Shown: one piece after another, positions 1-2,116 of the stretch | Numbering within the stretch: position 1 is the stretch's first letter | How the letters are laid out: each line of letters begins with the position of its first letter | Notes under the pieces: generated by a model | What the model saw: the letters and a program-made list of their open reading frames with translations, nothing else | Told to the model about the DNA's origin: nothing | Databases searched by the model: none | Translations under genes and position numbers: made by a program | Virus record (IMG/VR): IMGVR_UViG_3300036826_000317 | Location: 1 to 20,831 of that record | DNA length: 20,831 nucleotides | Reading direction: 5' to 3' (one strand) | Source of the DNA: a virus

Positions 1-270
1 CTCGAGTTGCGTCCGGTGCGCGCAGAGTCCGCACTCGGGCACCCGTTCGGCCGTGATCCGCTCCTTCGGCCCGCCCCAGACCATCACCGTCACCGCCACC
101 CACCGAGTGGTCAACTGCCCACACCCGCAGGCCACCGGGGTCGCCCGGACCCACCCATGGCTCACGCCGTGCTCATCCAAGGTGGACCACCAGAGGGGCT
201 CGGCCGTGTAGAGGTTTGACCCTCCCCGCCGGCAGGCCTCGCAGTCCTCAGAATGGCAAAGTTGAGTCAT
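1..270 (-). CDS. Cys-rich probable zinc-binding protein, partial (runs off left edge)
   Basis: This is an open frame of 90 codons with no stop before the window edge, so only the N-terminal part is visible. It begins MTQLCHSEDCEACRRG and has further cysteines in ACGCG and ECGLC, a spacing of C-x4-C-x2-C, then CxC and CxxC that fits a zinc-binding fold, probably a small zinc-ribbon or zinc-finger domain. The ATG at 270 has an AGGAG seven bases upstream. It overlaps the end of the preceding zinc-ribbon gene by 23 nt, which suggests translational coupling in one operon. I do not recognise a family. By position it belongs to the left minus-strand operon of small early-type genes. That it is coding is well supported by the RBS, the open frame and the cysteine pattern; its function is unknown. 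Confidence 0.6.
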   Translation of the reverse strand, partial: MTQLCHSEDCEACRRGGSNLYTAEPLWWSTLDEHGVSHGWVRATPVACGCGQLTTRWVAVTVMVWGGPKERITAERVPECGLCAHRTQLE

Positions 271-670
271 CGTCCGGCTCCTGACTATCGGGGGGCGGAA
301 TCGGGGGCGCTGGCTTCTTTATAGGGTCTGCCACCCCATTCCGACAGGCCTCGATGAATAGCGTGGCCGTGGCCTGGTTCAGGTTCTCGATGGTCACCGG
401 CAACTTATGTTCTTGGGCAAACGCCCCTACATGCGATTCCGCCACCTGCTGGCAACGCTTGTACATGATCGAGAGGCTGGTCCAGGTCCACTTGGGGCCA
501 GATCGTTGAACCTGGGGGCTACTCGGGGCCTTTTCGCCCCTCTCTGGCCACTTCACCCAGCCGCAGTCCTTGTCTTTGCAGGAGAAATCGGGGCTCTTGG
601 CCGAGAACTTCCCGGAGGCCTTCTTCTCCCGGTTATCCCAGACCTCCCCGCCACACTTCGGACAGTTCAT
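248..670 (-). CDS. Zinc-ribbon protein with SSB-like acidic C-terminal tail
   Basis: The 140-residue protein opens with a zinc ribbon: CPKCGG near residue 3 and CKDKDCGW near residue 31, separated by the stretch VWDNREKKASGKFSAKSPDF. This type of ribbon (WDNR, SPDF, CKDK) is familiar to me from phage and plasmid proteins linked to single-stranded DNA binding or annealing; I infer this from memory and have not searched. The middle (about residues 62-112) is helical and lacks known motifs. A Pro-rich linker leads to the end DDDSTLPF, which resembles the acidic tip DDDIPF of bacterial SSB, the docking site for repair and replication proteins. The ATG overlaps the upstream stop in an ATGA junction. 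A role in phage DNA replication or recombination is likely but not proven. Confidence 0.75.
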   Translation of the reverse strand: MNCPKCGGEVWDNREKKASGKFSAKSPDFSCKDKDCGWVKWPERGEKAPSSPQVQRSGPKWTWTSLSIMYKRCQQVAESHVGAFAQEHKLPVTIENLNQATATLFIEACRNGVADPIKKPAPPIPPPDSQEPDDDSTLPF

Positions 671-1020
671 AGCCCCACCCGTTTCAAGATTGCGAGCTGC
701 ATCTGGATCGACAGATGCAGAACCTCCGCTTCCGCTAGGACCAAGTCGAAGTCCATGACCCTATCCGCCACCCGGCGCTCATGCGCCAAGTATTCGGGGT
801 CCGCCTTGGCCGTCTTCTCGGCATCTGTCTTCGTGGACCCCGTGCCCTTGGCCCGCTCCTCAATCCGCAGCCGCAGGAGCCGCCCGTCGAACTCTGCGTT
901 GGTCAGCTCCCGGCGGATCAGCGCGGCCCGATGGCGGAACTCCTTGAGTTGGTCGAGCTGCTGATCCAACGGTCGCGGAGAGACAGGCCCCAACTCAGTT
1001 GGCTCGAGCGCGTCGGGCAT
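667..1020 (-). CDS. Coiled-coil phage protein, unknown function
   Basis: The 117-residue product (starting MPDALEPTELG) is almost wholly charged and helical, with heptad-like stretches in residues about 20-60 (QLDQLKEFRHRAALIRREL) and 75-115. There are no cysteines, membrane spans or catalytic motifs. I place the start at 1020 because AAGGAGGT lies 8 nt upstream of that ATG; another ATG at 1026 would sit only 2 nt from it. The gene is coupled by an ATGA overlap to the following zinc-ribbon gene, so the two products probably work together. Similar short coiled-coil proteins accompany recombination or ssDNA-binding genes in many phages, but the sequence itself shows no function. Confidence 0.7.
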   Translation of the reverse strand: MPDALEPTELGPVSPRPLDQQLDQLKEFRHRAALIRRELTNAEFDGRLLRLRIEERAKGTGSTKTDAEKTAKADPEYLAHERRVADRVMDFDLVLAEAEVLHLSIQMQLAILKRVGL

Positions 1021-1138
1021 AGTCATCGACCTCCTTGAATCTGCGAGTTCCCCACCAGAACAGCACCGCACTCGACAGGAACGACACCGCCCACGCCACA
1101 CACCAGCCCACCAGAACACCACGCCAGAAGTCGCTCAT
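995..1138 (-). CDS. Small single-span membrane protein
   Basis: This 47-residue protein starts MSDFWRGVLVGWCVAWAVSF and has one strong transmembrane segment (about residues 6-31, rich in Trp, Val, Ala and Leu), followed by a basic, cytoplasm-like tail ending RRARAN. The ATG overlaps the upstream stop in an ATGA junction, which supports translation despite its small size. It also overlaps the start of the next coiled-coil gene by 26 nt. I recognise no family. Possible roles include a superinfection-exclusion or membrane-anchoring peptide, but neither is shown by the sequence. Longer in-frame reading upstream to 1450 runs antilogous to its neighbours and lacks an RBS, so I reject it. Confidence 0.6.
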   Translation of the reverse strand: MSDFWRGVLVGWCVAWAVSFLSSAVLFWWGTRRFKEVDDYARRARAN

Positions 1139-1590: not shown

Positions 1591-1782
1591 ATGAACGTCA
1601 GCGCGACATTATCCATCCGACTGGAACCCAAGGACGCGCGGTCCGTCCGGCGGGCGGCTAAGCTGGCCGGGTTCAAGCACGTATCCGTCTATGCCCGGAA
1701 GCTCCTCTTAGAAGGAACAGACCGCGACCTCGCCCAAGCCGAGCACGACCGGCAGTTTGAGGAGAATGGGACCACAACTTGA
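1591..1782 (+). CDS. Ribbon-helix-helix (Arc/CopG-like) DNA-binding protein
   Basis: The 63-residue protein begins MNVSATLSIRLEPKDARSVR. The pattern is a short beta strand (ATLSIRL), helix one (PKDARSVRRAAKLAGF), a turn, then helix two (SVYARKLLLEG), as in Arc/MetJ/CopG repressors, which dimerise and insert a two-stranded ribbon into the DNA major groove. It is followed by an acidic tail (AEHDRQFEENGTTT). The start at 1591 is preferred over a TTG at 1555, which lies inside the -35 box. No Shine-Dalgarno is evident and the promoter predicts a leaderless transcript. Its position, divergent from the left operon and overlapping its promoter, suggests a repressor of that operon and perhaps of itself. 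An antitoxin role is the alternative, but the partner gene does not look like a toxin. Confidence 0.7.
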   Translation: MNVSATLSIRLEPKDARSVRRAAKLAGFKHVSVYARKLLLEGTDRDLAQAEHDRQFEENGTTT

Positions 1783-2116
1783 ATTGACCTACGAGCCAGC
1801 GTTAGACCGGGAACGGTTGTCCCGCCTCCTCGGAGCTGTCCTTCAGGCGTTGCGATCGGGTGCCTGGCTAACGCTGGCTGAAATCCGCGAACGCGCCCAG
1901 CATGGTAGTGAGGCGGGGATCTCGGCGAGAATCCGCGAATTGCGCGACTGCGGGTTTGTGATCGAGCGGAGGCGACGGGGCAATCCCGCGCGGGGCTGGT
2001 GGGAATACCGCATGACGGGGGGACGGTTCCGGGTGCTGCCGAGTGACTTACGCCAGGCGCGGAAGGCGAAGCGTCTAGTGTGTCCCCAGCCAATAGCCGA
2101 CGCCCGCCCCGAATAG
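1766..2116 (+). CDS. Winged-helix DNA-binding protein
   Basis: The 116-residue protein has a winged-helix core at about residues 20-75: a helix (LSRLLGAVLQALRSGAWLTL), AEIRERAQ, a recognition helix with SEAGISARIRELRDCGF, then a basic wing (VIERRRRGNPARGWWEYRMTG). The motif ISARIRELR followed by ERRRRGNPARG-WEYR is common in small phage proteins that I know as hypothetical HTH proteins. It overlaps the ribbon-helix-helix gene by 17 nt, so the two are one transcription unit. The ATG at 1766 has GAGGAG only one or two bases upstream; a TTG at 1757 is possible. The 3' end runs 42 nt into the convergent spanin-like gene. Likely a transcriptional regulator; the target is unknown. Confidence 0.7.
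   Translation: MGPQLELTYEPALDRERLSRLLGAVLQALRSGAWLTLAEIRERAQHGSEAGISARIRELRDCGFVIERRRRGNPARGWWEYRMTGGRFRVLPSDLRQARKAKRLVCPQPIADARPE

Follow-up and report, generated by a model that had tools for sequence, protein, structure and literature searches.

An SSB-like C-terminal tip on a phage zinc-ribbon protein and on related annealing proteins

The locus and the parts of the 140-residue protein

The stretch of DNA analysed here (the window) is the 20,831-base virus record IMGVR_UViG_3300036826_000317, which is possibly a fragment. Its minus strand carries genes for a terminase large subunit (TerL) and an HK97-type capsid, both recognized by family matches. Near the left end of the contig, within a string of overlapping small genes, lies a gene for a protein of 140 amino acids, whose start codon shares an ATGA with the upstream gene's stop and is immediately preceded by gggtgggg. 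The upstream gene gave no significant family match. At the other end of the gene, the codons of the C-terminal tip overlap the start of the next ORF, and their bases may serve two reading frames. The features of the locus are as follows:

667-1122, minus strand: upstream gene, sharing the ATGA overlap; its ATG start lies inside a listed GTG ORF
248-670, minus strand: gene of the 140-residue protein (zinc ribbon, helix pair, linker and SSB-like tip), from the sequence
542-670, minus strand: zinc ribbon, residues 1-43, with Cys3, Cys6, Cys31 and Cys36, and with W11-D12-N13, P27 and W41 invariant
341-484, minus strand: helix pair, residues 63-110 (helices 63-88 and 94-110), from the AlphaFold2 model
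278-340, minus strand: Pro-rich linker, residues 111-131, predicted to be disordered from the sequence and pLDDT
251-274, minus strand: SSB-like C-terminal tip DDDSTLPF, from the sequence; enriched in relatives
1-270, minus strand: downstream Cys-rich ORF that runs off the contig, its ATG (270-268) inside the tip codons

Read directly from the minus strand (670-248), the product begins MNCPKCGGEVWDNREKKASGKFSAKSPDFSCKDKDCGWVKW, continues with the helix pair and the Pro-rich linker, and ends KKPAPPIPPPDSQEPDDDSTLPF before a TGA stop. The DDDSTLPF codons occupy 274-251 and the stop 250-248. The SSB-like acidic C-terminus on a zinc-ribbon protein that a first-pass annotation had described is hence confirmed at 251-274, while the span assigned to it, 248-300, takes in the tip and most of the linker. 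In the ribbon, C3, P4, C6, G7, W11, D12, N13, P27, C31, C36 and W41 are invariant in 20/20 aligned relatives. The motif CPxCGxxxWDN occurs a single time in the window and in none of 100 shuffles, and the protein carries the complete arrangement by which the ribbon family is defined, CPxCGxxxWDN...C...C with the invariant P and W.

The AlphaFold2 model, built from 20 aligned sequences (mean pLDDT 82, pTM 0.43), consists of a confident ribbon, with pLDDT of 93-97 across residues 1-40 in 10-residue blocks, the two helices at 63-88 and 94-110, and a low-confidence tail, with pLDDT below 50 at residues 115-119 and of 55-69 over residues 111-140. A fold search with this model gave no PDB match at E <= 0.001; in a second fold comparison the helix pair reached Z values no higher than 6.7, which the tool does not yet regard as meaningful, and a profile search of solved structures with the protein gave a best E of 0.99. 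No SSB match was found in PHROGs, Pfam or NCBIfam, and no annealase core domain (ERF, Rad52 or RecT) by family match. With a model made of a ribbon and two helices, no OB-fold in it and no SSB family match, the protein does not qualify as an SSB in fold or in family, and the suggestion that it might be a divergent phage SSB is not supported. The feature that it does share with SSBs is the acidic tip ending in P-F after a disordered linker. As in the C-terminus of E. coli SSB (DDDIPF), an acidic stretch, a hydrophobic residue and P-F stand at the very end; unlike there, the tip is borne by a zinc ribbon and a helix pair instead of an OB-fold, and S-T separates the aspartates from LPF.

Elsewhere in the window, a winged-helix-like ORF (1757-2116, plus strand) lies on the strand opposite to the late genes; its match to Pfam HTH_39 (E 7e-4) is just below the curated cut-off. 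Gemmatimonadota were considered as host of the phage. TerL matches 4 of 298 Gemmatimonadota genomes at E <= 1e-20, the best at 59% identity on a 3.7-kb contig, and the genome with this best match has no capsid match; together these results are insufficient to name the host.

Relatives of the ribbon and conservation of the tip

Whole-protein searches recovered little. The 140-residue protein gave only an E=6 match by tblastn against cultured phages, a single-protein search for relatives found none in viral contigs and none in genome contigs, and the relatives L177 and L094 and a ribbon-and-tail fragment of an ERF protein, used as queries against cultured phages, gave nothing significant. Relatives were found with a DNA pattern for the ribbon, C-P-x-C-G-x3-W-D-N, in which the C-terminus has no part. 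This pattern located 103 stretches in viral contigs, and a slightly stricter version 31 in bacterial genome contigs, 26 of them with Gemmatimonad titles and one further from Roseisolibacter, which we take to be a gemmatimonad. A phmmer search with the window ribbon matched 107 ORFs at E <= 0.01, itself among them, the best-scoring relative having 2.8e-17, and the ribbon matches 21 of 298 Gemmatimonadota genomes at E <= 0.001.

A tip was scored when the last two residues of a protein were P[FY] and the seven before them included two or more D/E. By this rule it is present in 83/109 distinct ribbon proteins (117 ORFs by ribbon HMM membership) versus 5 of 1,982 background ORFs, the latter chosen greedily at a length of at least 80 aa from the loci collected, TerL loci among them, and including spurious ORFs. 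An alternative count by regular expression gave 85 tips in 113 ORFs and missed five true members, which fell into its background. When the ribbon proteins are reduced to 34 representatives by single-linkage clustering at 50% identity, which does not make them fully independent, 18 have the tip (Fisher p 1.6e-30 versus background) and 16 do not. Shuffling the last 30 residues of each representative would produce 0.097 tips in 34, where 18 are observed. On these sequence counts, the tip in the ribbon family is not due to chance.

The composition of the tip is also constrained. Among the 83 tips, position -3 is I in 44 and L in 17, and position -4 is D in 34 and E in 30. Among the 18 tip-bearing representatives, pairwise identity is 45% at -6, 28% at -4 and 21% at -3, most linker positions having 5-12%; positions -1 (F or Y) and -2 (P) are fixed by the tip rule itself. 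A tail not conserved in homologues had been named as the observation that would refute the first-pass reading; what was found is a tip strongly enriched and kept in relatives whose linkers diverge. The tip of the window protein is a minority form, with S-T at -5/-4 in place of the D/E of most relatives, and a similar ending, ...DSTPF, is found in L156.

Annealing proteins, stand-alone forms and SSBs

Most relatives of the ribbon are longer annealing proteins of three families. In some the ribbon is preceded by ERF (PF04404, by Pfam and PHROGs) and in others by Rad52_Rad22 (PF04098). The third fusion family has no Pfam name (alignments A3 and A4); the ribbon and, for the most part, the tip are retained there beside differing linkers. 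The elements of its model (mean pLDDT 69) run beta-beta-alpha-beta-beta-beta-alpha, and two chains of human RAD52 came first in the PDB comparison, both as weak matches (E 2.6e-3 and 8.5e-3). Many phage ERF and Rad52/22 proteins end in the same ribbon and tip as the window protein, which differs from them in having no annealase domain; the ERFs sampled from cultured phages also differ, with ribbon or tip in 0/10.

Ribbon and tip are found as well at chromosomal Rad52-like proteins of Gemmatimonadota; in L191 and L208 the gene, read by eye, lies near a presumed asd. On other Gemmatimonadota contigs (L194, L196, L202 and L213) there is a second chromosomal form, a stand-alone protein that combines two zinc ribbons with a strong SSB-like tip (FDDDDLPF, FDDEDLPF, DEDDLPF and FDDDDIPF). 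Further architectures were observed. A Gp3-like protein, resembling a recombination directionality factor, carries ribbon and tip in L131 (4754-6397, minus strand). In L085, L088, L090, L100, L118 and L122 an N-terminal helical region, QVALKAAVEL-like in several, is followed by the ribbon, and many proteins of this architecture end in ...PPF or ...APF, like the tail NDYPPF of the phage HK620 SSB. A phage DnaB-like helicase in L135 (6927-8312, plus strand) itself ends in an SSB-like tip, TEDVPF, and phage proteins of L086 (4156-5211, minus strand; no Pfam match) and L148 (3448-4323, minus strand) end in EIDDMPF and EIDDLPF without a ribbon.

Eleven phage proteins, counted by eye, begin with the ribbon or have it close to the N-terminus, and contain no annealase. 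Only four of these stand-alone forms have the tip (window, L094, L177 and L245), and seven lack it (L097, L117, L130, L132, L157, L163 and L168). The window protein shares its helix pair with L177, L168 and L245, the last of which was outside the profile build and provides an independent check of the helix-pair profile (E 7.8e-10). Three of the four proteins that combine ribbon and helix pair in one chain carry the tip (window, L177 and L245, not L168). In L157 the helix-pair module has a gene of its own, which overlaps that of the ribbon; the scores behind this link are weak (E 0.09 and 0.17), but the match is the reciprocal best among 11,132 ORFs. Members of the DnaB-like helicase, primosomal protein, HNH endonuclease and Holliday-junction resolvase families are encoded nearby in L168, L094, L177 and L157. 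A search confined, among annealases, to ERF and RecT found neither in the window nor in nine other stand-alone records, ten records that may be fragments.

The presence of SSB genes was compared between these phages and cultured ones. Among cultured-phage ERF loci, 5 of the 9 annotated have an adjacent SSB gene, and 4 of those 5 SSBs have a canonical tip; in Firmicutes phages, erf stood beside ssb in almost 80%, according to a published survey (PMC8093625). Of 95 ribbon-carrying virus records, all possibly fragments, only 7 gave a match to SSB (PF00436). Of these seven SSBs (L294, L295, L296, L297, L310, L311 and L312) one retains a tip by rule, L310, which ends GDDLGYGIPY; in the others it is decayed or absent, the ends being GNLY, GNGPW (two), TYNW, AWDD and HGGN, as in DDLGYGNLY and DDLGYGNGPW. 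The numbers are small and suggestive of a tip that shifted away from the phage SSB in ribbon-carrying phages.

A proposed role for ribbon and tip

Through its short acidic tail, bacterial SSB recruits repair enzymes, and RecO is a known reader of this tail (PMC7913777). Gemmatimonadota SSBs end in EDDDLPF (7/7) and RecO was found in 8/8 genomes of the group, so a reader of such a tip exists there. We propose, with a probability of about 0.5, that the window protein is an OB-less adaptor of a phage replication/recombination module that shows an SSB-like tip to SSB-binding proteins. In the model, the ribbon, and perhaps the helix pair, would hold the protein on DNA or on another phage protein, and the disordered linker would display the tip. 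The tip would then be read by proteins that normally read the SSB tail, namely RecO, other host repair and replication proteins, or similar phage proteins. In most relatives ribbon and tip end an annealase (ERF or Rad52/22) and would form a recruiting tail in cis, not on a separate SSB, whereas the stand-alone form of the window would provide the tail in trans.

In a second, rather improbable scenario, the tip reads a phage-encoded partner, a helicase, nuclease or annealase, unrelated to the host SSB-binding proteins. The ribbon genes are located in replication/recombination modules, and the SSB of phage HK620 uses its tail to recruit Sak4, which the same phage encodes (PMC5928155). Ribbon and tip are, however, also chromosomal in Gemmatimonadota, near asd in L191 and L208 as read by eye, where no phage partner was seen.

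It is improbable, too, that the tip acts as an internal regulator that folds back on the basic ribbon or on an annealase core, competes with ssDNA and recruits nothing. T4 gp32 and T7 gp2.5 have acidic tails that reportedly compete in this way, and the charges of the window protein are compatible with it, residues 1-60 having a net charge of +5 and the last 28 residues of -4. For this function acidity alone would suffice, yet the P-[FY] end and the hydrophobic residue at -3 are kept, which favours the recruiting form of the SSB tail over autoinhibition.

We consider it quite unlikely that the end of the window protein arose by chance or as a by-product of the overlap with the next ORF, the tip being relevant only in the annealase fusions. 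The shared tip codons and the seven tip-less stand-alone forms would agree with such an origin. Against it, shuffling the last 30 residues of the protein produced a tip in only 0.48% of the trials (0.0048), and the tip recurs in three of the four single chains with ribbon and helix pair. It is very improbable that LPF serves here, as it does in SsbA of Streptococcus mutans, to mark the protein for degradation by ClpXP. LPF alone was enough in some S. mutans strains (PMC5143411), but other strains of that species, S. gordonii and E. coli did not recognize it, and at -3 most relatives carry I instead of L.

In HK620 (PMC5928155), the annealase Sak4 is recruited by the SSB-type tail NDYPPF, and some relatives of the ribbon protein end in NYPPF or similar, as in L100; the HK620 tail differs in being on an OB-fold SSB, while here the ribbon bears it, either at the end of an annealase or in a protein that stands alone. 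Because cultured-phage ERFs without ribbon or tip often adjoin ssb, and the HK620 SSB tail recruits Sak4, the ribbon-plus-tip annealases may bear in cis the tail that in other phages comes with a separate SSB. The transfer of SSB-tail recruitment to a zinc ribbon is partly supported by the sequences as a variant of known recruitment, the recruitment itself being putative. Mimicry of host SSB to recruit its partners, as first suggested, remains the best reading in view of a tip enriched and conserved in homologues, with contact to partners only putative. The accompanying idea of hijacking the host is too narrow, as the same ribbon and tip occur on chromosomal Gemmatimonadota Rad52-like proteins, and mostly as tails of annealases.

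No prior description of the ribbon-plus-tip module was found in searches of an open-access library. We suggest tentatively that ribbon and tip form a movable, hitherto undescribed 'detached SSB tail', by which several annealase families, in phages and on Gemmatimonadota chromosomes, would recruit the SSB interactome themselves, the stand-alone form being a possible OB-less SSB surrogate that offers the tail in trans. Phage recombination, like recombineering tools in new hosts, is limited by the way in which phage annealases reach SSB-coated DNA and by the source of the SSB-binding proteins on which they rely. A simple and portable answer would be a recurrent module in which the SSB recruiting tail belongs to the annealase directly or to a small protein apart from it.
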